In this document: in pieces, positions 4,537 through 58,825 of the stretch
How positions within the stretch are numbered: the first letter of the stretch is position 1
Layout: each line of letters opens with the position of its first letter
Assembly: GCF_002162315.1 (NCBI RefSeq)
Contig: NZ_CP021416.1
Location: 1,810,207-1,874,206 of the forward strand
Direction: 5' to 3'
DNA from: Sulfurospirillum diekertiae
Lineage (GTDB): Bacteria; Campylobacterota; Campylobacteria; Campylobacterales; Sulfurospirillaceae
Length of the DNA stretch: 64,000 nucleotides
Translations under genes and position numbers: made by a program
Notes under the pieces: model-generated
Told to the model about the DNA's origin: nothing
Databases searched by the model: none
What the model saw: the letters and a program-made list of their open reading frames with translations, nothing else

Positions 4537-4844
4537 CCTTGCACCCTTCCAACATTCATGATTTCAATCAAATTCATATCATCTAACATCTCATACAGCT
4601 CTTCACTACCTACTTTTACATGTAAATTCATTTTGTCCATTTTAATGGACTTGATTAAAAAACCTATTACCGATGACGTAATGATAAAAGAGTCTTGAAT
4701 CATGAGGTTAATGCTAATATGGGGATGCTGCTCATGCGCTTGGCGAATTGCATCTTTGATCGCTTGTGCATTTCCAATTGTCTTAATCGTGCCTGTGATA
4801 AGAATATTCACATGCTCACTGTGCACTTTGGTCACTAAATCCAT
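4533..4844 (-). CDS. Small STAS-like protein coupled to a chemoreceptor
   Basis: A 103-aa soluble protein with the alternating beta/alpha pattern of a STAS (anti-sigma-factor-antagonist-like) domain: a beta-strand start ([10 protein letters not shown]), a helix ([14 protein letters not shown]), a strand ([12 protein letters not shown]), then [13 protein letters not shown], which resembles the STAS phosphorylation-loop region, and a terminal [11 protein letters not shown] helix. First gene of a two-gene unit with the heme-motif chemoreceptor, overlapping it by 4 bases. A GGAG ribosome site precedes the ATG. The partner is unknown; fusion-like coupling suggests it modulates receptor signalling. 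The fold call rests on pattern only. Confidence 0.65.
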
Positions 4845-6993: not shown

Positions 6994-8526
6994 TTAGTGT
7001 AAGAAGTGTCTAACGCCTGTGAAGTAAAGTGCCATACCATGCTCATTGGCAGCTGCGATAACATCGTCATCACGAATACTGCCACCTGGTTCAATGATCG
7101 CTTTAACACCCGCTGCAGCGGCTGCATCAATGCTATCACGGAAGGGGAAAAATGCTTCACTTGCAAGTGCTGCACCACTCACATCAATACCCATATCTTC
7201 CGCTTTGCGAAGTGCTGCTTTGGCAGCATCCACACGACTGGTCATACCCATACCAATCGCTACCATGGCGCTCTCTTTGACATACACCACACAGTTTGAT
7301 TTGGTCAAACTTGCGACTTTATAGGCAATTTCAAGATCGCTCAGCTCTTGTTTAGAAGCGGTTCTGCTTGTCAAACATTTGGCATTTTTGATCTCATCAT
7401 CGTTGACCATGTCGCTCTCTTGGAAGACAAAACCGCCATCAACGTGTTTAAAGTCGTACGCATCTTCACTGAGCACTAAATATTTACTCTCTTGGGTAAA
7501 GATTTTGATGCGTTTTTTCGCATCAAACACATGCAACGCATCTTCATCGACATTCGCCGCAATGATGACTTCCACAAAAATTTCATTGATTTTCTCAGCC
7601 AAGGCTTTATTCAAGGTTCCATTAATCGCCACAACACCACCGTACGCAGAGACAGGATCACATTTCAGCGCTTTAACGTAACTGTCTAGCAAATCGCCAC
7701 CGATGGCAAAACCACAGGGATTGGCATGTTTGATGATACATACCGCTGGAGCGTCACCAAAGGATGCAGCAATTTTAACCGCACCGTTAATGTCCGTCAT
7801 ATTGTTAAAGCTAGCTTCGCCTTTGAGCGTTTTAAAATTGTTCGTAAAGAAGTAGTCAAACTCGTACAAAGAGCCTTTTTGATGTGGATTCTCGCCATAA
7901 CGAGTATCAAATGCTTTGGTGCCTACGATAAACTGTTTCTCACCAAAACCGTTGTTAAAGCGTTTGTTCATGTAATTGGCAATCATGCTATCATAAGCAC
8001 CCGTGTGCTCGAACGCCTTAATCATTAAATCTCTTCTAAATTCTAAAGTATTTTTACCAGACTTAAGCGCTTCAATCACGTTATCATAATCTAGAACATC
8101 GGTAACAATCAGAACATCATTAAAGTTTTTGGCGGCACTTCTTACCATCGCAGGGCCACCGATGTCGATATTTTCGATAATTTCATCAAAATCATCGGTC
8201 TTAGCAATCGTCTCTTTAAACGGATAGAGATTGACACACACAAGATCAATTCCTTCGATGCCATGCTCTTTCGCAACTTTTACATGTAAAGGTAAATCCC
8301 TTCGGTGAAGGATGCCTCCATGAATCATTGGATTGAGTGTTTTCACACGTCCATCAAACATCTCAGGGAACTTGGTGACTTCGCTGATTTCCAGAGCTTT
8401 AATACCCTCTTCTTTTAAAAGTTTATAGGTGCCACCCGTTGAAATGATCTCAAATCCCAACGCCACCAAATCCTTAGCAAACTCCGCAATCCCCGTTTTA
8501 TCGCTGACACTAATTAACGCTCTCAC
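6994..8526 (-). CDS. purH: Bifunctional AICAR formyltransferase / IMP cyclohydrolase
   Basis: Catalyses the last two steps of de novo purine synthesis, formylation of AICAR and ring closure to IMP. Full length at 510 aa. The N-terminal cyclohydrolase domain begins [19 protein letters not shown] and has STGGTYKLL. The C-terminal transformylase part has [10 protein letters not shown] and the catalytic [11 protein letters not shown] (about residue 263). The start is GTG at 8524-8526 preceded by AAGGA. purL lies about 7 kb away on the same strand but not in an operon. A strong hairpin ends the transcript. Confidence 0.97.
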
Positions 8527-11071: not shown

Positions 11072-11148
11072 TTTTTTCACCTTTACATGTAAAACTTGGT
11101 TTATAAAAATATGTTACAATCATTACACTAAAAAAAAGGACAATTTTG

Positions 11149-12282
11149 ATGGGTAGTTTTGATGAGATTGTAGATAGAACAAAGACACCTAGCGAAAAAT
11201 GGGACAAGTACAAAGGGACTGATGTCATCCCCGCATGGGTTGCCGATATGGATTTCAAATCACCTCCATGTGTGATAGATGCCCTTCAAAAAAGAGTGCA
11301 TGAGGGTGTTTTTGGTTATACCGCCATCGATGATGAAACCTATGATGCGATTATTGCATTTCTCAAACGTCACTATAACTGGGAAATTAAAAAAGAGTGG
11401 TTGCTCTTTACTCATGGTGTTGTGAGTAGTATGAATATTACGTGTCTGAGCGTGGATGGCAAAAGTGTGATGACAACTACTCCGATTTATCCGCATTTTA
11501 TTAAAGCACCCAAATACGCGAATAAAGAAGTTTTAGCCATTGCGATGAAAGAGGAAAACAACCGTTGGGTTCTGGATTATGAGGCGATGGAGAGAGCGAT
11601 TACGCCTACATGTAAACTCTTTATGCTGTGCAATCCCTACAATCCAGCAGGAACAGTGTTTACATGTAAAGAACTTGAAAGGCTAGGAGAATTTTGTTTA
11701 AAACATGATCTTACCATCTGCTCCGATGAAATTCATGCGGATCTTTTATTAAATCCCATGGCAAAACATATTCCTATCGCTTCACTGAACGACACATTGG
11801 CGCAAAGAAGCATTACCCTCATGGCGCCAAGTAAAACTTTTAACATTGCAGGGCTTCAAGCCTCTTTTGCCATTATCCCCAATGCTGAGCTTCGCAAAAA
11901 CTTTAAAAAGACAATGGGCAGTATGGTCGGAGGTATCAACCTTTTGGGCATTACCGCACTTAAAGCGGCTTACCTTGAAGGTGATGCGTGGCTTAGTGAA
12001 CTTCGTGTCTATTTGGCAGAAAATCTTAAAATGGTACAAGACTTTGTCAGCAAAAATCCAAAACTCAAACTTTTAGATCAAGAAGCGACATTTCTTGCGT
12101 GGATCGATGCATCTGCTTTACATGTAAAGAGTCCTTACGCGTTTTTCTTAGACCATGGTGTTGGGCTGAGCGATGGGGAACCCTTTGGTGATAAAAATTG
12201 TGTACGACTCAATTTTGGAACCCAAAAAAGTGTTTTAAAAGAGATATTAAACCGTATGCAAAAGGCAATGGATAGCCTATGA
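11149..12282 (+). CDS. PLP-dependent aminotransferase of the PatB/MalY family (cystathionine beta-lyase-like)
   Basis: Fold-type I PLP enzyme of 377 aa. Family marks are the N-terminal KWDKYKGTDVIPAWVADMDF, CNPYNPAGTVF for cofactor binding (about residue 160), SDEIHADLL (aspartate pairing the pyridine nitrogen), and the Schiff-base lysine in APSKTFNIAGLQ (about residue 228). PatB/MalY proteins cleave cystathionine or cysteine C-S bonds; the exact substrate is not predictable. AAAGGA precedes the ATG at 11149. The next gene starts within its stop (ATGA). Two exact TTTACATGTAAA palindromes lie inside the gene (11659 and 12117), encoding FTCK and LHVK. Confidence 0.9.
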   Translation: MGSFDEIVDRTKTPSEKWDKYKGTDVIPAWVADMDFKSPPCVIDALQKRVHEGVFGYTAIDDETYDAIIAFLKRHYNWEIKKEWLLFTHGVVSSMNITCLSVDGKSVMTTTPIYPHFIKAPKYANKEVLAIAMKEENNRWVLDYEAMERAITPTCKLFMLCNPYNPAGTVFTCKELERLGEFCLKHDLTICSDEIHADLLLNPMAKHIPIASLNDTLAQRSITLMAPSKTFNIAGLQASFAIIPNAELRKNFKKTMGSMVGGINLLGITALKAAYLEGDAWLSELRVYLAENLKMVQDFVSKNPKLKLLDQEATFLAWIDASALHVKSPYAFFLDHGVGLSDGEPFGDKNCVRLNFGTQKSVLKEILNRMQKAMDSL

Positions 12283-22216: not shown

Positions 22217-23023
22217 ATGACTTCCCTAGACAATCTTATCTGTTCATATAACTCAAAAGTTGTACTAAAAGAGGTCATAGTGTTCACTCAAATAGAAATA
22301 ACAACGGCATGTAATGCCCACTGTTTTTACTGCCCTCAAGATACACTACCTCATAGTCATATGTCAGAGGAGTGTTTTAAGAAGATTGTCCAATCCGAGA
22401 AAACACCTACCTTACTCTTACTTCAAGGCACTGGTGAACCACTGATGCACCCTTCTTTTTGGAAAATGGTTGTCTTTGCTAAAGAGATGGGTCACCATAT
22501 CGGTATTATCACCAATGGTAGCATAGACATAGACCCTAAGCATCTCTTTTTATTAGATACTATTGGTTTTTCTATGGATACCCTAGATGAAGAGATCGCC
22601 AAACGAAGTGGTAGGACTTCTCCTTCTAAAACGCTCAAACATCTTTTAGCGTGCCATAGCTTAACCCCTAAAAAGATCAAACTTTATGCCGTAAATTATG
22701 GGCAAAACCTAGAACCTCTTAAAGCCTTTGCCAAAGAGCAGAACATTCCTCTTTTGATACAAAGAATACAACCAAAAAAGAGTTACCAAGCGCATTACAC
22801 CACAGAACCTTTACCTTATACAACCTACCAATGTACCTACTTAGAAAATAAAAAGATGCATTACTATTTTGTAGATGGAACCAAAGCTCCTTGTTGCTTT
22901 ATGATTGATGCTACAAAAGTTTTACCAATTAAACAGATATGGCAACACCTAGAACAAAAGAATGTTCCCCCATGTTGCACACAATGTGGTGAACTGACTG
23001 GTGTTAAACGGCTTTACATGTAA
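22217..23023 (+). CDS. Radical SAM protein, SPASM-like C-terminus
   Basis: A 268-aa protein with the radical SAM 4Fe-4S motif CNAHCFYC (C-x3-C-x2-C), the LLQGTGEPLMHPSF segment (GGE-like), and a late cysteine set (APCCFMIDATK, PPCCTQCGEL) that may bind a second cluster as in SPASM proteins. Function unknown. The ATG at 22217 has no ribosome site; a GTG at 22280 preceded by GAGG would begin at FTQIEITTACNA and is a credible true start. An exact TTTACATGTAAA palindrome supplies the last codons and the stop. Confidence 0.75.
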   Translation: MTSLDNLICSYNSKVVLKEVIVFTQIEITTACNAHCFYCPQDTLPHSHMSEECFKKIVQSEKTPTLLLLQGTGEPLMHPSFWKMVVFAKEMGHHIGIITNGSIDIDPKHLFLLDTIGFSMDTLDEEIAKRSGRTSPSKTLKHLLACHSLTPKKIKLYAVNYGQNLEPLKAFAKEQNIPLLIQRIQPKKSYQAHYTTEPLPYTTYQCTYLENKKMHYYFVDGTKAPCCFMIDATKVLPIKQIWQHLEQKNVPPCCTQCGELTGVKRLYM

Positions 23024-23163
23024 AGATATAAATTCAACACAAAGGGGCACAAAGTGGTGAAGAAAACAAGGTCGCGTGAGCTAGAAGATGGTATGTTGAA
23101 ACGGTGGAGAAAAGAGCAAGAAATATCTTTACATGTAAAGATTAAAAATGGAGGAAAAATCCA

Positions 23164-24647: not shown

Positions 24648-24671
24648 CTCTCATTGTGAGAGGAAATTTTT
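24648..24671 (+). terminator. Terminator after the lipase fragment
   Basis: Stem CTCTCA / TGAGAG with loop TTG, followed by GAAATTTTT. The T run merges into an exact TTTACATGTAAA palindrome at 24669-24680, which lies between convergent genes. Confidence 0.6.
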
Positions 24672-24703
24672 ACATGTAAAAAATGCAAGAGTATTTTTGA
24701 AGA

Positions 24704-31189: not shown

Positions 31190-33083
31190 TTAATGTATAA
31201 ATTTGTCGATAATCTCTTTGTATTTTTTTTTCTATAACGTGACGTTTCTTTTTGAAAGTATTCGTCAACTCTTCACCTACTTTGAACTCTTGGTCTAAGA
31301 AATGAATATTTTGGAGCTTTTCGAAAGGTTTAAATCCTTGTCCTTGATGCAAGAGATCGTTCATCTCACTTTTGATTTTAGCCACAATCTGTTTATCTTC
31401 CATGACCTGTTCAATATTATAGACCACTTTATCAAAATGAGATGCAATATACTCTTTTAATTTTTCAAAATCAGGCACAATAAGCGCACCTAACCCTTTT
31501 TTTGTATGACCTACTAAAATAGCATCCGTAATAAAAGGCAGCATGGCTATCGTTGATTCAATTCGGCTAGGATCGACATTTTCACCACTTGCAAGCACGA
31601 TCATCTCTTTAGATCGACCAGTGATGACCAGCTCACCTTTGATGGTCAATTTTCCAAGATCACCTGTTTTAAAAAAGCCATCTTCACTAAAACTTTTAGC
31701 ATTCTCTTCAGGGTTATGGTAATAGCCTTGCATGACTTGCGCACCTTTGACCCAAATTTCCCCGATTTCACCAGAACCTAATTGATCACCTTCTTTGTCA
31801 ACAACCACAAGCGTTGTACCGCGAACAGGTAAGCCCAATGTTGAAAAAGTATTGCACTGCAACGCACGTCCTGCAATGGTTGGCGCACACTCTGTCATAC
31901 CATAGGCATTGACAATACGAATACCAATTGCATCAATCCATGTATCTAAAAAATCGGGAAGCGCACCGCCACCACTCACGGCCAAACGAAGTCTTCCACC
32001 AAATTTTTCCTGCACGAGCGCTAATTTTTTCTGAGCAATTGCATTGAATGGGCTTAGGAATAAACGTTTAAAAAAAGCAATGGTTTTATCTTTACATGTA
32101 AAGAGTATAGACCGCTTGTTAAAACAGGGTAATTCATCTTTTAAAACACGATCTGCACGCTTATAAGCAGCCGAAATAGCAACCAGTTTGTTAAAAAGTT
32201 TTGCTTTCTTAGGATCTTTTTTTTCCAAGGCTGTATTAATCTTTGTGTACATAGATTCCCATAGCCTTGGCACGGTAGCCACAATCGTTGGTTTATACTG
32301 TTCTAAATCAGCCGCAAATGTTTTAATGGTCGAATAGACCGTGCAACTGCCTTTTGCGATCGAAAGATATTCAGCGGCTCGTTCAAAAATATGCCACGAT
32401 GGAAGAATAGAAACCCAAACATCATCACACTCAAGAGCAATAAGTGGGGGCAATTCTTCTACATTATACATAATGTTTTTATGGGTTAAAATAACCCCTT
32501 TGGGAATACCTGTTGTTCCAGATGTATAGATCAACGTCACAACATCTTCTTCATCCAAAAGTGCTTTTCTCGCACAGAAAGCTTCAATTTCATCCGCATG
32601 AATTGTTCGATCTTTTAATAGATCGTGGTAAGAATAAAGATTGGTTAATAAAGAGTGAACTTTAGGTGCTTCAAGAATAAAAATCGCTTTTAGCTTTAAA
32701 GTATTGAGCATCGTTTCATGTCTCGTGTAGACCTGCTCATTTTCAATAATCAAAAACTCGGCACCCGAATGCGTAAGAATAAACTCTAACTCTTGTGTTG
32801 GAGTATCGCATCCTCTTGGAATACTAATCGCACCCAAAGAGATGAGCGCAAAGTCAGTGACCATCCACTCATAGCGATTATCACAGACAAACATGACTTT
32901 AGAGCCCTTCTCAATCTTTTTGCTTTTAAAAGCACGAGAAAGGACTAAAACATCCTCAAATAATTTTTCATAGGTGACTTCAAACTCTTTATCTACAACC
33001 TTGTAAATAAAGGCTTTTCTCTTTTTATACTGTTCATAGGTCTTAACAAACATATGAAACAACGTGTTCTCTTCACGATGCAA
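31190..33083 (-). CDS. Long-chain acyl-CoA ligase (AMP-forming), C-terminal frameshift
   Basis: Activates fatty acids to acyl-CoA through an acyl-adenylate. Motifs: TLIYTSGTTGIPKGV (A3), NAYGMTECAPTIAG (A5), KTGDLGKLTIKGELVITGR (A7/A8) and a C-terminal catalytic-lysine region. As read, the frame ends at 31104 and overlaps the next gene by 76 bases with an unusual tail. A nine-T run at 31223-31231 (plus strand) probably has one base too many; with eight, the protein ends EKKYKEIIDKFIH at 31190, typical of the family, with normal spacing to the next gene. An exact TTTACATGTAAA lies inside at 32091, encoding FTCK. Confidence 0.88.
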
Positions 33084-35710: not shown

Positions 35711-35905
35711 TCATTCTCCTTAAAATTTGGAAAAACAATTTTATCTAAAAAGTCTCTCTTTTGGTAATTTTCACCTTTTGTCTTGCACACTTTTTTACAT
35801 GTAAACCATGAAATTTTATCAACTTGTGCATAAATTTGATACAATAGTTTGTTGTAAATGCTTGTAAAGTTTCTCACTTTAGAAGCATCGTCTCAAAGGA
35901 AATGA

Positions 35906-37930: not shown

Positions 37931-37985
37931 TCTTTACATGTAAAGACATTCTTACACAAATATAGTTATAACTTTTACATGTAAA
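37931..37985. repeat. Two TTTACATGTAAA palindromes in tandem
   Basis: Exact copies at 37933-37944 (within the 16-base palindrome 37931-37946) and 37974-37985, 41 bases apart (about four helical turns), in the spacer between trkA and msrB. The second is followed by GAGGTTTTTT. They may act as weak terminators or as protein sites. Confidence 0.7.
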
Positions 37986-38465: not shown

Positions 38466-38531
38466 ATGACCCAAAGCGAACCGGACTCGGTTAGTTTTCA
38501 TTTCGTTAATCTCAGGGGAGTTATTCTATGA
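38466..38531 (+). CDS. Possible 21-codon leader peptide upstream of the CNNM gene
   Basis: A short frame with a good ribosome site (AAAGGAA at 38453-38459) encodes MTQSEPDSVSFHFVNLRGVI plus one leucine. Its TGA overlaps the next ATG as ATGA, and it contains the GGGGAG ribosome site of that gene. The arrangement is that of a regulatory leader peptide or coupling ORF for a metal transporter gene. No homologue was recognised. Confidence 0.5.
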   Translation: MTQSEPDSVSFHFVNLRGVIL

Positions 38532-39605
38532 CACTTCTGATCGTCTATCTTTCTCTTGCTATCTGTGTATCTTTTCTCTGCTCCATGATGGAAGCCATCT
38601 TACTCTCAAGCACAAACTCTTATATCGAATCACTTCCAAAAGAGGTGAATGAAGACAATGTAGCTATGCTCAAAGGGTTAAAGTCCAACATTGACAAACC
38701 TATCTCCTCTATCTTGACAATCAACACGTTTGCCAATACAATGGGAGCCGCAGGTGTCGGTGCTCAGGCACAAATCTTATTTGGACAAGAGTGGCAAACA
38801 GCTGTGGCTTTTGGTATTACCCTCCTAATCTTGTATTTCTCTGAGATTATCCCTAAAACCATTGGTGCGATTTATTGGAAAAAACTTTTAATCCCAGCAG
38901 GGCATATTATTACGTTTTTTGTTACAATCACAATTCCCTTTACATGGCTATCATCGCATTTAACCAATTACATCTCAAAAAACAAAAAACACCATTCTAA
39001 TTTTTCACGTGATGAAATTATGGCAGTCGTTGCAATGGGAGAAAAAGAGGGATCAATCCTTAGCAAAGAAAGTGACCTGATTGAAAATCTTTTAAAACTT
39101 AAAAATATCAAAGCCAAAGATATTATGACGCCTCGAAGCGTTGTGTTTGCCTTGCCAGCGACTACCACCATCGAAGATGCCATTGAAGATGATCGTATGT
39201 ATATTCACTCACGTATTCCTGTCTTTGGTGAGACCTTAGATGATGTTGTGGGCATTGCTTTTAATCAACGCATCTTAGAAGAGAGTGTGGAAGATCACGA
39301 TAAAACAACACTCGCAGATATTGCACATGAAGTCCATATGGTTTCTGAGTATTTGCCTGTTCCAAACTTGATTGACCAATTTATTAAACGTAAAACTCAT
39401 CTTTTTGTGGTATTTGATAGCTACGGTCAAACCGCAGGTGTTGTGACACTTGAAGATGCTATTGAGACGCTTTTAGGTGTTGAGATTGTGGATGAAATGG
39501 ACGAAGTAGAAGACATGCAACTCTTTGCGAAAGACCGCAGTAAAAAAATTTCAAGATCGTATGAAAGTCGAACGTAAAAAGCTCGAAAAAGCAAAAGTTA
39601 ATTAA
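38528..39605 (+). CDS. CNNM/CorC-type transporter (DUF21 plus CBS pair), C-terminal frameshift
   Basis: Inner-membrane protein of the hemolysin-like CNNM/CorB group, linked to Mg2+ or other divalent cation efflux. DUF21 (residues 1-165) has about four helices, starting ICVSFLCSMMEAILLSS. A CBS pair follows (about 190-315: KDIMTPRSVVFALP, HLFVVFDSYGQTAGVVTLEDAIETLLG). As read, it ends at 39577 with ISRSYESRT. If the A7 run at 39542-39548 were A6, it would continue FQDRMKVERKKLEKAKVN and stop at 39603-39605, just before the terminator, which is more natural. Confidence 0.87.
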
Positions 39606-39617
39606 GCGAATTCAATC

Positions 39618-39649
39618 ATAAAGAGGCTTTACATGTAAAGCCTCTTTAT
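39618..39649. terminator. 32-base perfect palindrome with TTTACATGTAAA at its centre
   Basis: Every base from 39618 to 39649 pairs with its mirror partner; the outer arms are ATAAAGAGGC and GCCTCTTTAT and the centre is the repeated dodecamer. It lies between convergent genes and overlaps the phosphatase stop. As RNA it forms a G+C-containing stem topped by the dodecamer and ending in an A/T tract on both sides, so it probably terminates both transcripts. Confidence 0.75.
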
Positions 39650-40239: not shown

Positions 40240-41338
40240 CGTTGAAAACTTTACCCGTTAGATTTTCTATTTTTGAAATAATCGCTTTTGTAGCATTTAA
40301 GCGTCTTGTGATGTTTCGCTGTGCTTCATCATTGCCTTCACATTTTTTAAGCGCCTTTTCAAAGCGTTTTTCAAAACCACACACCTCATCTTCACACACT
40401 AATTTATCGGCTAAAAAGAGTAGCTCATTGGCATTTAAAGGAGTATGGTCTTTGACATCAATGTCCATGTGCGTTTCAATGATATTACCGATGGCTTCAT
40501 AACCCATCGCGCGTAGTCTTTGGGCACCAATAAAGGCATGATTTTTCTCTTGACGAGCAATATCATGTAACAATGCCGCAGCACTTAAAGTTTGTTTATT
40601 TATATTGAGCCCAAAAGAAGTAATGCCCTCATACACTTTACTGACCATGCCCTCCACTGCTTCACAATGTCTAATGATAGGTTCAGGTACCTCATTTTCT
40701 AACATGATCGCCAAACACTCCTCTTTAGTGGGAGTATTCATCACTTCATAGACGACAAGGTTAATGTAATCATCCAGTATATCCATATCCATTAAAACCG
40801 ATTGATCAGACACGTTTACATGTAAAGCATCTTCCTTAAACGCTTCCAATACTTTTTTAAGTCCACCTTTTCCATCACTAGCTAAAATCTTCTCTTTATA
40901 CTTCATATCAATAAGCGGAGGATGACCTTTTTTCCCAAGAAAGGTAGGATAAAGAACGCCCTTATGCTCATGGATATACGCTTCGTATAAGCTTTCAAGG
41001 GTTTTCACTTTAATGAGTGGAATGTCCACTGGCTGCATATAAAACGCCACCACTGTTTCATCTATGGCACTCAGCCCTTTTTGAATAGAGCTAAACATAC
41101 CTTTTGCATAATCCTCATTATAAACGATATGAACCTTATACCCTTGAAGTGCCTCAATAATATCATCCTGCCTATGCCCCGTGACAACATATATATGTTC
41201 TATCCCATAAGTTTGGTAGGTCTGAATCAATCTCTCCACAGCAGTTATTTGCCCAAAGGGCAAAAGGGGTTTAAAATCGTGCATTCGAGAAGAATACCCA
41301 GCGGCAATAATAAGAACAGCGATGTTGCTCTTTTCCAT
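40232..41338 (-). CDS. MobA-like nucleotidyltransferase fused to an HD domain
   Basis: A 368-aa two-domain protein. The N-terminal half (1-200) is a MocA/MobA-type NTP transferase: LIIAAGYSSRMHDFKPLLPFG, YVVTGHRQDDI, MQPVDIPLIK and KKGHPPLI. It is expected to attach CMP to molybdopterin for a xanthine-oxidase-type enzyme. The C-terminal half (about 225-345) is an HD domain with HCEAVEGM and LLHDIARQEKNHAFIGA. The fusion matches, to my recollection, the DVU_1551-type NTP transferase group found beside aldehyde oxidoreductases. The XdhC gene ends three bases before its start. Confidence 0.85.
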   Translation of the reverse strand: MEKSNIAVLIIAAGYSSRMHDFKPLLPFGQITAVERLIQTYQTYGIEHIYVVTGHRQDDIIEALQGYKVHIVYNEDYAKGMFSSIQKGLSAIDETVVAFYMQPVDIPLIKVKTLESLYEAYIHEHKGVLYPTFLGKKGHPPLIDMKYKEKILASDGKGGLKKVLEAFKEDALHVNVSDQSVLMDMDILDDYINLVVYEVMNTPTKEECLAIMLENEVPEPIIRHCEAVEGMVSKVYEGITSFGLNINKQTLSAAALLHDIARQEKNHAFIGAQRLRAMGYEAIGNIIETHMDIDVKDHTPLNANELLFLADKLVCEDEVCGFEKRFEKALKKCEGNDEAQRNITRRLNATKAIISKIENLTGKVFNDG

Positions 41339-42380: not shown

Positions 42381-43679
42381 TCATCCTTTGTTTCTTATGT
42401 TGTTGTCTATCTTTCTTTTGATCATGCTGTTGGTCATTTTGGGTGAGTGATCGTCTTCTTCTACATGAAGTCTAAAATTAAATTCAAACGGAAAACAGTC
42501 TCGAATACGACGGATTACCTCTTCTTTTAACGCTACACAACGCTCTTTGTTGGCAAGGATAAGCTTTACATGTAAACTGTTTTTCTCACATACCGTAAGC
42601 TTATAATCCAAAATACGAGGAAAGCGTAAAAGAATTTCATCGAACTCTCTTAAATGAATTGCATGCCCATTAATGTCTATTTTATTTTCCATGCGACCCA
42701 ACACTTTTTCCATAGTTCGCAAAAAAGTGCCACACGCACACGGTTTGGTAGAAAAGCGTGCCATATCGCCTGTTCTATAACGAATAAGTGGCATTGCTTG
42801 ACGATGGAGCGTTGTAAAAACAACTTCGCCATACACGCCATCTTCCACAGGCTGACCCGTAATGGGGTCTATGATTTCAAAATAGAGATCATTTTCCCGT
42901 AAATGATAGCCATTGAGGCATTCACACTCAACACCTCCACCGTATCCCATCTCTGTCATGCCGTAATGGTTAAAAACGTGACACTCTCCATTATCGTTAA
43001 GCGCCTCGACGAGTACATCAGGGACATAATCTGTACTTAAAAGAACTTTTTTAATATGCTTTGCAAACACCTCAGATTTGGCTTTACTCAAATACAACAC
43101 TTGCATCGGTATACCCACAATACATGTAATGTTGTTTTCTTCAATACACAAAGCCGTTTTTTCAACATCATTCAGTATCCCATGAACGATACACTCAATT
43201 TTCGAAAGCGCTAATGCTTTTTTCAGTAAATCCCCAATGCTTCCATAAGCAGAACCGGGAAGTAAAACCAATACTTTGTCGCTTTCATCAACCAAACAGC
43301 GCATCCCGTGACTAAAAAAGTCAATGGTCAACTCCAAATCTTGCTGCGTGAACAAGATGCGCTTCTCATCTCCTGTCGTACCCGAAGTATTTAAGGTCAC
43401 AATGCGTTCAATTTCATTACTCGGGACACAGGCAAAATTATACGCATTGCGTTTAATGTCATCAGAGGTTGTAAACGCAATTTGTTCGAAATCTTCAAAA
43501 GATACGATAGAGTTTAGGTCAATATCTTTCAACATTGTTTGATAAAATCGGCTCTTCTCTTTTGCATAAGCTAATGTTTTAATCAGTTCGTCAAGCTGGT
43601 ATGCACGCATGGCTTCTTGGCTTTTGTGTGCAATGTGAGTACGCTCTATGATCCAATGCTCTAAGGGTGTTACGTTCAT
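42381..43679 (-). CDS. AMP-dependent ligase, PaaK-like, of the molybdenum hydroxylase cluster
   Basis: A 432-aa adenylate-forming enzyme related to phenylacetate-CoA ligase: VTLNTSGTTGDEKRILFT, FNHYGMTEMGYGGGVEC, YRTGDMARFSTKPCACG and a C-terminal KMTNSMIKRKI with the catalytic lysine. A cysteine-containing insert (ECECLNG; CACG) resembles zinc-binding loops of PaaK relatives. It overlaps the radical SAM gene by 4 bases. Position suggests it works with the aldehyde oxidoreductase, perhaps activating the acid product, as in the DVU_1553-type group (recollection). Confidence 0.82.
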   Translation of the reverse strand: MNVTPLEHWIIERTHIAHKSQEAMRAYQLDELIKTLAYAKEKSRFYQTMLKDIDLNSIVSFEDFEQIAFTTSDDIKRNAYNFACVPSNEIERIVTLNTSGTTGDEKRILFTQQDLELTIDFFSHGMRCLVDESDKVLVLLPGSAYGSIGDLLKKALALSKIECIVHGILNDVEKTALCIEENNITCIVGIPMQVLYLSKAKSEVFAKHIKKVLLSTDYVPDVLVEALNDNGECHVFNHYGMTEMGYGGGVECECLNGYHLRENDLYFEIIDPITGQPVEDGVYGEVVFTTLHRQAMPLIRYRTGDMARFSTKPCACGTFLRTMEKVLGRMENKIDINGHAIHLREFDEILLRFPRILDYKLTVCEKNSLHVKLILANKERCVALKEEVIRRIRDCFPFEFNFRLHVEEDDHSPKMTNSMIKRKIDNNIRNKG

Positions 43680-51586: not shown

Positions 51587-52059
51587 CTTTTTACCCCTTA
51601 AAATTAGTGTTACTCTATTACTAAATGCAACAATATGCGAAAAAAGCATATTGATATCTATAAGCTTTTTGAAAATCTCATTTAAATACCTATAATATGT
51701 ATTTTTTGCATATTACTAGATATGAACCGTCAAAAAACTCACCAATTTAAATTCACTATGAAGCACGTACATACACTGTATTACTCATGTTTTATAGAAT
51801 ATTTTTTTGGCCTCCCATAACCTACGTATTTTTTGTTGTCTTAACTATCACTGAAGATTATATACTAGTAATCTAGCATGAATATAGCAACAGTATCGAT
51901 TGCAAATATGCCTTATTGCAAACAGAAATTTGTGAGTAAATACGTAATCTCTTTACATGTAAAGCTTTTTTTTTGCAACTTCATCGCTTAAAGCAACTTT
52001 TTGAAAGCTACTATTGGGTATCTTTATTTTAAGGTCAAAACGGTGAAAGGAGACATTTT
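51587..52059. promoter_or_regulatory. Divergent control region between the mop operon and a two-component system
   Basis: This 473-base gene-free stretch is strongly A+T-rich. It holds two 21-base inverted repeats (51632-51652 and 51694-51714), direct repeats ATTGCAAA at 51899-51906 and 51915-51922 (16 bases apart), and an exact TTTACATGTAAA at 51952-51963 followed by a nine-T run. AAAGGAG lies before the kinase ATG at 52060. It probably contains promoters for both directions and sites for the OmpR-type regulator. Confidence 0.6.
51632..51714. repeat. Pair of 21-base AATATG/CATATT inverted repeats
   Basis: Both units have arms AATATG and CATATT with a nine-base middle (51632-51652 and 51694-51714); centres are 62 bases apart, close to six helical turns. 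The first begins 46 bases upstream of the mop ATG. Symmetry, shared arms and phased spacing suggest binding of a dimeric regulator. Confidence 0.5.
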
Positions 52060-54634: not shown

Positions 54635-54659
54635 AAGGGATTTACATGTAAAGCCTTTG
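54635..54659. terminator. Terminator-like hairpin centred on TTTACATGTAAA
   Basis: Imperfect palindrome with CAAAGG and CCTTTG outer arms around the exact dodecamer at 54641-54652, between the convergent regulator and MscS genes. Same construction as the 32-base palindrome at 39618-39649, with mismatches. Confidence 0.55.
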
Positions 54660-58129: not shown

Positions 58130-58245
58130 TTCGTATCGGAGCTTAGGGGAAGTGGGGTAAATTCTTGTGGTGAAGCTTTACATGTAAAGATTTTATTGAT
58201 TGTAAAAGTTATAAGTTTAGTTCTGATTTCTTTTTATACACCAAT
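58130..58245. repeat. Imperfect inverted repeat centred on TTTACATGTAAA, unit 1
   Basis: The dodecamer at 58177-58188 is flanked by diverged arms (ATCGGAGCTTA on the left; AGTTTAGTTCTGAT on the right). A related structure lies at 58735-58825, on the other side of the cytosine deaminase gene, and the right arms of the two units are alignable. The spacer 58004-58233 holds no gene. Confidence 0.45.
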
Positions 58246-58734: not shown

Positions 58735-58825
58735 TGATACGGAAGCTAAACTTTGAAAAGTTGACTTTTTTATGTCTTTACATGTAAAAAAATGAAATTT
58801 TAGAAAGTTAAAAGTTTAGCTCCGA
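58735..58825. repeat. Imperfect inverted repeat centred on TTTACATGTAAA, unit 2
   Basis: Left arm CGGAAGCTAAACTTT near 58740 and right arm AAAGTTTAGCTCCG near 58808 are nearly complementary, with the exact dodecamer at 58777-58788 near the middle. The rest of the 58681-58904 spacer shows no gene. It resembles unit 1 at 58130-58245. Confidence 0.5.

Follow-up and report, generated by a model that had tools for sequence, protein, structure and literature searches.

The self-complementary dodecamer TTTACATGTAAA, found at the apex of a probable terminator hairpin in the 64-kb stretch of Sulfurospirillum diekertiae DNA analysed here (hereafter the window), represents a hyperabundant genomic palindrome whose occurrence is associated, albeit with exceptions, with an orphan DNA methyltransferase. 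The interpretation that we favor, and to which a probability of roughly 0.6 is assigned, is that of a HIP1-like, methyltransferase-linked palindrome in Campylobacterota, namely a putatively methylated, CATG-centred 10-12-mer that would act as a mark of self DNA and would also lodge in terminator loops. The hyperabundance, the rigid palindromic core, the conservation, the point-mutational turnover, the second CATG palindrome in the order and the association with the enzyme are established by observation. An earlier note on this DNA, in which the dodecamer was considered an element of terminator design, had overlooked the genus-wide hyperabundance, the conservation at the DNA level and the link with the orphan methyltransferase.

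Abundance, form and placement of the dodecamer

The dodecamer is present in the window in 19 copies (Table 1) vis-à-vis 0.03 expected from shuffled sequences, and the 2.88-Mb genome G000 contains 792 exact copies, i.e., one every 3.6 kb, and not a single copy of the reversed control. Form and placement were analysed in 1.23 Mb of G000 (L031-L090), sampled as three blocks and annotated with our own gene finder. In this sample the core TTACATGTAA occurs 496 times against approximately one expected occurrence, other palindromes having the same half-site composition occur at most once each, and the spacing between the half-sites is fixed, TTAC-N2-GTAA being found 516 times and the other spacings 15-36 times. 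The preferred context is C-TTTACATGTAAA-G and, beyond the core, there is a preference for G at +1 and for A/T at positions +3 to +7; cores with one mismatch, 156 compared to the 47 expected, deviate mainly at the outermost position.

Table 1. Positions of the features discussed in the text (window coordinates, except for the methyltransferase gene)
Feature	Position	Strand	Remarks
32-base perfect palindrome/hairpin between convergent genes	39618-39649	.	probable bidirectional terminator, dodecamer at apex
Upstream convergent gene, CBS/CNNM-type protein by appearance	38528-39577	+	frameshifted near 3' end with respect to orthologues
Downstream convergent gene, 197 codons	39646-40239	-	stop overlaps end of palindrome
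Dodecamer	4615-4626	.	within ORF
Dodecamer	8279-8290	.	within ORF
Dodecamer	11082-11093	.	divergent gap
Dodecamer	11659-11670	.	within ORF
Dodecamer	12117-12128	.	within ORF
Dodecamer	23013-23024	.	overlaps stop codon of gene 22217-23023
Dodecamer, 3-bp palindromic extension	23128-23139	.	tandem-gene gap, shortly before start codon
Dodecamer, 2-bp extension	24669-24680	.	past gene end
Dodecamer	32091-32102	.	within ORF; core intact in 7/10 aligned relatives
Dodecamer	35794-35805	.	intergenic, divergent
Dodecamer	37933-37944	.	intergenic; close pair, first member
Dodecamer	37974-37985	.	intergenic; close pair, second member
Dodecamer TTTACATGTAAA	39628-39639	.	hairpin apex; core TTACATGTAA at 39629-39638
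Dodecamer	40815-40826	.	within ORF; core intact in 6/9 aligned relatives
Dodecamer	42565-42576	.	within ORF; core intact in 7/9 aligned relatives
Dodecamer	51952-51963	.	intergenic, divergent
Dodecamer	54641-54652	.	17 bp past stop codon; weak imperfect stem, unconvincing as hairpin
Dodecamer	58177-58188	.	intergenic
Dodecamer	58777-58788	.	intergenic
Core TTACATGTAA	1709-1718	.	one outer dodecamer base altered
Core TTACATGTAA	14589-14598	.	one outer dodecamer base altered
Core TTACATGTAA	15736-15745	.	one outer dodecamer base altered
Core TTACATGTAA	15880-15889	.	one outer dodecamer base altered
Core TTACATGTAA	21850-21859	.	one outer dodecamer base altered
Core TTACATGTAA	27391-27400	.	one outer dodecamer base altered
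Core TTACATGTAA	45844-45853	.	one outer dodecamer base altered
METHYLTRANSFERASE, D12 adenine methyltransferase, ~325 aa	G000:C1:2607453-2608424	minus	outside window

The 306 exact dodecamers of the sample are distributed among genes (180, i.e., 59%), tandem gaps (61), convergent gaps (43) and divergent gaps (22), which corresponds to densities of 3.56/kb in convergent gaps, ~0.7/kb in the other gaps and 0.16/kb in genes; the excess in convergent gaps over the other intergenic DNA is highly significant (Fisher p 1e-14). The density of the motif is alike in the three sampled blocks (0.36-0.45/kb) and its spacing is near random, with a slight genome-wide excess of close pairs. One such pair, whose members are 41 bp apart, occupies a single short intergenic stretch of the window (37933-37985) and is intact in L133, L137 and L141.

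The rigidity of a palindrome consisting of two half-sites at fixed spacing, together with its graded flanks, is suggestive of a dimeric DNA-binding protein, so that the dodecamer could be recognised by an abundant protein of the nucleoid or of gene regulation, whose binding might depend on CATG methylation. This explanation is nevertheless quite improbable, since 59% of the copies are genic, the divergent (promoter) gaps are not preferred, the density varies little from one sampled block to another and the strong constraint acting on ~1,150 cores would require selection at each of them. Neither a motif excluded from the terminus (SlmA/Noc-type) nor a strand-biased one (Chi/KOPS-type) finds backing in the sampled densities, and the motif is a perfect palindrome. 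A general enrichment or avoidance of CATG was also rejected as the cause, the frequency of this tetranucleotide outside the motif being 0.76 of expectation in G000 and 0.73 in the motif-poor G010; this mild under-representation, where an enrichment might have been looked for, does speak against our preferred explanation.

The hairpin between the convergent genes

The sequence ATAAAGAGGC-TTTACATGTAAA-GCCTCTTTAT (10 + 12 + 10 bases) bears out the earlier description of a 32-base perfect palindrome, with the dodecamer at its center, located between convergent genes, and its final four bases are shared with the 3' end of the minus-strand gene. The RNA of either strand can form a hairpin of 14-16 bp whose loop is CAUG, the folding energies being -17.5 (plus) and -19.8 (minus) kcal/mol, with z ~ -6. 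The U-tract consists only of short U-runs, located in part inside the stem, and the site was not listed by a scan for the terminator consensus.

When the position 3' of the orthologous CBS/CNNM-type gene was compared among Sulfurospirillum relatives, the dodecamer was found at the apex of the stem in the window and in L133, L138-L141, L144 and L163, with arms that vary among these loci: AAAGAGGC/GCCTCTTT in most of them, AAAAAGAGC/GCTCTTTTT in S. diekertiae JPD-1 (L133) and TAAGGC/GCCTTA in L144. An almost identical stem lacking the dodecamer is present in L135 (AAAGAGGC TTTAGTTATAAA GCCTCTTT) and in L137, a different stem, also lacking it, is present in L134 (S. cavolei) and L136, and in L142 the loop is shortened. 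Thus, the stem-loop has been kept through changes affecting both sides of the arms whereas the dodecamer is variable, which provides good comparative support for a terminator and indicates that the dodecamer is separate from it. The terminator function proposed earlier for the palindrome is therefore probable, and the hairpin is probably a predicted intrinsic-type terminator of an ordinary kind. Since it occurs in the relatives with or without the dodecamer, it is the palindrome, and not the hairpin, that constitutes the surprise, and the best explanation is that two things are superimposed at this site, an ordinary terminator hairpin and an iterated palindrome situated in its loop.

The plus-strand CBS/CNNM-type gene carries, within 39520-39606, a homopolymer having an extra base (CAGTAAAAAAATTTC compared with CAGTAAAAAATTCC in L133), as a result of which it ends at 39577 while the orthologous frame ends at ~39606; the shortened gene reflects either a true frameshift or an assembly error.

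Three near-copies of this design had been pointed out elsewhere in the window, but none of them folds as an extended hairpin with the dodecamer at the apex. At 54635-54659 the palindrome is imperfect and its fold is no better than that of shuffled sequences (z -0.9 and +0.4); at 23125-23142 the dodecamer with its 3-bp extension lies in a tandem-gene gap, 24 bp ahead of a start codon, and has a z of -1.3; at 24667-24682 the best plus-strand fold pairs the bases otherwise and does not have the dodecamer as its apex.

The earlier note had asked for a genome-wide test of the position of the dodecamer, and the 1.23-Mb sample gave a mixed answer: the anticipated excess downstream of genes and in convergent gaps is indeed there, but most copies lie outside hairpins and some six out of ten are genic. 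The core is present in 46 and a hairpin in 48 of the 105 convergent gaps, yet only 11 of these 48 hairpins contain the core, with paired dodecamers in some cases and a single one in others. At least five perfectly paired flanking bases accompany just 12 of the 306 dodecamers, and more than half of the convergent-gap copies have no palindromic extension whatsoever. The view that the dodecamer belongs to the terminators and was recruited by virtue of being self-palindromic is consistent with the fivefold excess in convergent gaps, with the core-containing convergent hairpins and with the conservation of the 39618-39649 hairpin through arm changes on both sides, but is most improbable, considering that the majority of the copies reside in genes, that most intergenic copies are devoid of arms, that the dodecamer alone yields a stem of just 4 bp and that four relatives (L134, L135, L136 and L137) have a hairpin without the dodecamer at this site.

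Conservation and turnover

G000 and G001 are 82.4% identical over 332 kb, and within this alignment 115 of 124 cores (93%; 95% inside genes) are unchanged, as compared to 82 of 476 control 10-mers located near the cores and to 18% (genic) and 28% (intergenic) of control 10-mers taken genome-wide. The same constraint is seen in codons that keep their amino acid: within the motif TTA (60/60), CAT (60/60), GTA (59/60), ACA (21/21) and TGT (21/21) are unchanged in 221 of 222 cases, whereas outside the motif the corresponding values are 57, 77, 43, 53 and 78%. In the neighbourhood of the window, every aligned site is intact in L133, L138, L139, L140, L141 and L163 (73-92% identity), while none of seven is intact in L135 and none of five in L134. 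What is maintained is the DNA sequence of the palindrome, apparently to the disadvantage of the host proteins. A mobile repeat of the REP or MITE type was discarded because conservation is limited to the 10-12-mer, the flanks differ and the gains and losses at orthologous positions are mostly substitutions, a few indels being found among the core gains and losses distinguishing G000 from G001.

A different picture is offered by the motif-poor G010, in which none of the 19 sites is intact within the 54 kb aligned to G000 (L111-L115), the ancestral presence of these sites being judged from G000, G001 and window loci only. The lost sites have accumulated 4.2 mismatches per 10 bases as opposed to ~2.3 in their immediate flanks (p 2e-8), i.e., ~1.8 times the flank rate, and the amino acids specified by the motif have been exchanged in proteins whose local identity is 90-96% (e.g., SLHVII → SLAVII and ALTCKG → ALSPKG), the new residues being sometimes nearer to those of the out-group proteins. 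The simplest interpretation is that residues not needed by the protein are dictated by the palindrome and are overwritten once the maintaining force is gone. A loss faster than that of the flanks exceeds, however, what simple relaxation predicts and is not fully explained.

Distribution of the palindromes and the orphan methyltransferase

The dodecamer is found in all 24 Sulfurospirillum genomes, in 14 to 792 copies, and is abundant in most of the genus. Outside the genus it is common, among 299 genomes sampled across the order, only in the sister genera of the same family (up to 346 copies) and in a few genomes of another family, f17 (up to 86). No dodecamers occur in the sister genome G059, which possesses another CATG-centred palindrome, TATCATGATA, present in 166 copies; this palindrome reaches 1,549 copies in G064 and 1,009 in G159 (genus g35, family f7), amounts to 88 in G218 and is represented by 0 to 30 copies in most other genomes of the order. 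Like G059, G064 and G159 are devoid of dodecamers, and in G064 a G is preferred after the core of TATCATGATA, as is the case with the dodecamer. An orphan relative of the Sulfurospirillum D12 methyltransferase described below is present in both G064 and G159 (L231, L232).

The assignment of this methyltransferase to the D12 class is based on matches to PF02086 (2.5e-47) and to PADLOC MTase_II (2.8e-113); no convincing relative emerged from the PDB. In the 11 motif-rich genomes that were mapped, the gene is conserved, mostly syntenic and has no adjacent restriction gene. It is present in all 14 Sulfurospirillum genomes having at least 549 dodecamers, the match in G012 being in two pieces. Searches for it came out negative in G010 (14 copies, a single contig), G022 (62), G017 (112), G021 (124) and G013 (271), as they did in G019 (293) and G018 (412), two incomplete genomes for which the absence is uncertain. 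G011 (144) and G014 (235) have a more divergent methyltransferase at another locus. On the other hand, G023 has the enzyme but only 258 dodecamers, and moderate counts occur without a detectable relative of the methyltransferase in G110 (283), G013 (271) and G144 (86), exceptions that might be explained by a loss of recent date, by a different enzyme or by a flaw in the model.

The association between methyltransferase and motif abundance has a Mann-Whitney p of 4e-5, uncorrected for phylogeny. In the gyrB tree the poor lineages are scattered among the rich ones: G010 and G017 pair (support 0.99) beside the G000 and G001 groups, their exact placement having a support of 0.19, G013 and G018 lie beside G015/G016/G020, and G011 and G014 beside G003, the deep nodes being weakly supported. 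This interspersion suggests at least three parallel changes. Of five disjoint pairs drawn from the tree, four go in the expected direction and one (G023/G019, G019 being incomplete) goes against it. The presence of the enzyme is not sufficient, since its family is widespread in the order, often in genomes in which neither palindrome is abundant.

As to the specificity, IceA1 of H. pylori (NlaIII-type) and NlaIII cut CATG and each is paired with a CATG methyltransferase. Close homologues of the orphan enzyme adjoin ICEA (PF05315) in G218 and G027 and, by coordinates, in G071, and the homologue of G290 lies, likewise by coordinates, beside an ICEA remnant. Taken together with the central CATG of both palindromes, these neighbours argue that the orphan methyltransferase probably methylates CATG. 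The motif-rich genomes all lack a detectable ICEA, and the methyltransferase is for this reason regarded as an orphan there. In the motif-poor G022, in which the A1-type methyltransferase was not found, an ICEA (NlaIII-type) gene is present (G022:C17:1430-1981, L305).

Relation to known systems

The closest parallel is offered by HIP1 and the alternate HIPs of cyanobacteria (GCGATCGC; Elhai 2015, PMC4390886), hyperabundant palindromes which are substituted by other palindromes in related lineages and whose deviations affect the outer positions; HIP1 abundance and HIP1 replacements go with methyltransferases for its center (PMC4390886). The dodecamer likewise occurs far above chance genome-wide and has in TATCATGATA its alternate palindrome in related lineages, and the link with a methyltransferase takes here the form of an association with exceptions, the putative CATG specificity deriving from the ICEA neighbours. 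Unlike HIP1, a cyanobacterial G/C-rich 8-mer centred on GATC, the dodecamer is an A/T-rich 10-12-mer centred on CATG and belongs to another phylum, is associated with what is probably a D12 adenine methyltransferase akin to methylases of the NlaIII type, has a lower density, prefers convergent gaps and is found in hairpin loops.

These similarities would also be compatible with a purely mutational maintenance of the HIP1 type (Elhai's model), in which methylation of the center directs mismatch repair and the motif has no signal function: palindrome and methyltransferase are configured alike and the deviations concern the outermost positions (PMC4390886). Such a maintenance is improbable, however, because the conserved unit of 10-12 bp plus flanks far exceeds in length the tetramer presumed to be methylated, there is no general enrichment of CATG, the published model depends on GmeC-dependent repair, and repair alone does not explain the preference for convergent gaps.

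With the uptake sequences of Neisseriaceae (DUS) and Pasteurellaceae (USS) the dodecamer shares the hundreds of copies, the strong consensus, the gradual origin by point mutation with turnover of the same kind, the conserved orthologous positions, the lineage specificity of the motif and the presence in terminators, as well as, in the case of USS, a core followed by A/T-rich flanks. In fact, published uptake sequences comprise more perfect than one-mismatch copies, have A/T-rich flanks, arise by point mutation and occupy long-lived sites (PMC1626085, PMC1939737), and they are present in ~55% of the terminators in Neisseria and in 17-29% of those in Pasteurellaceae (PMC1852404), so that the comparison with Neisseria and Haemophilus made in the earlier note was apt in outline. 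It is accordingly conceivable, if unlikely, that the dodecamer is an uptake signal of this type, recognised directly by a receptor at the cell surface and independent of methylation, in which case the link with the methyltransferase would be a phylogenetic coincidence or a by-product. The excess of perfect over one-mismatch copies, the consensus and the A/T-rich flanks agree with this view (PMC1626085, PMC1939737, PMC1852404), and so do the point-mutational origin, the long-term positional stability, the occurrence of another motif in another lineage and the terminator placement. Yet the known uptake sequences are not palindromes (PMC1939737) and the parallel drop of motif and methyltransferase would be left unexplained. 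Furthermore, the content of competence genes does not follow the abundance of the motif: nearly all genomes, the motif-poor ones included, have ComEC and T2SSF, and almost all of the Sulfurospirillum genomes searched yielded no stand-alone ComEA, a gene whose variation is unrelated to abundance. Competence genes were hence discarded as the discriminating factor, and they lend no support to an uptake step. To our knowledge, no methyltransferase link exists for DUS or USS.

Two further systems are pertinent. C. jejuni, a member of the same phylum, imports only DNA methylated at RAm6ATTY by CtsM (PMC10046745), an adenine methyltransferase marking a palindromic motif as self DNA; a similar role is only proposed for Sulfurospirillum, where the motif would be the CATG-centred dodecamer instead of RAm6ATTY. 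The second is represented by the NlaIII and HpyI-IceA (CATG) systems, related to the present one through the ICEA neighbours of the close homologues of the methyltransferase and through the CATG center of the dodecamer, but differing from it in that the enzyme of motif-rich genomes is an orphan, with ICEA undetected, and in that restriction usually results in avoidance of the site whereas the dodecamer is hyperabundant. In the literature searched, no paper tying TTTACATGTAAA to these bacteria was found, nor anything on the motif for Sulfurospirillum combined with uptake sequences or palindromes, and no prior description of a HIP-like, methyltransferase-linked palindrome in these bacteria was encountered.

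Proposed mechanism and implications

In the mechanism that we propose for the methyltransferase-linked palindrome, the orphan enzyme would methylate the central CATG, and the methylated 10-12-mer would constitute a mark of self DNA read by a machinery that favors recombination of marked DNA, most plausibly natural transformation. New copies would be born by point mutation and spread by recombination, would settle where they are least harmful, i.e., in convergent gaps, hairpin loops and tolerant codons, and would decay upon loss of the enzyme. What we infer in this scheme is that the enzyme is specific for CATG, that methylation takes place in vivo, that the mark has a reader and that uptake is involved.

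A broader proposition, put forward here tentatively as a possibility falling somewhat short of even odds, is that Campylobacterota carry methylation-marked, lineage-specific palindromic self-DNA signals, in which orphan CATG methyltransferases derived from NlaIII-type systems are tied, in at least two families, to TTACATGTAA or TATCATGATA, the palindromes driving at the expense of the proteins and collapsing upon loss of the enzyme. If this were true, cyanobacterial HIPs, uptake sequences and CtsM-type methylation-dependent transformation would be a single phenomenon. It has long been asked why short sequences reach extreme copy numbers in bacterial genomes, and in the case of cyanobacterial HIP1 the methyltransferase link is known but there is no agreement on the function. 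The palindrome described here represents an independent case in another phylum, with several low-copy lineages lacking the enzyme, at least one of them with a complete genome, and with culturable relatives. It also teaches some caution, in that the terminator or regulatory role ascribed to a motif of this kind can be secondary, and a motif can enter the loop of a pre-existing hairpin.

Additional observations

The one significant gap in the spacing of the motif is a 29-kb stretch (G000:C1:913567-942592, L060-L062) of 32.6% G+C from which the core is absent. It has groEL/groES at its start but is rich in genes resembling those of mobile elements, ParA-like and Xre-like ones along with many others having no obvious function, and is probably in part a recently acquired island. 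Finally, the G000 sample shows a strong avoidance, as if by restriction, of GGCC (0.29 of expectation) and of CCGG (0.43), and GATC is strongly avoided in G059 and G144.
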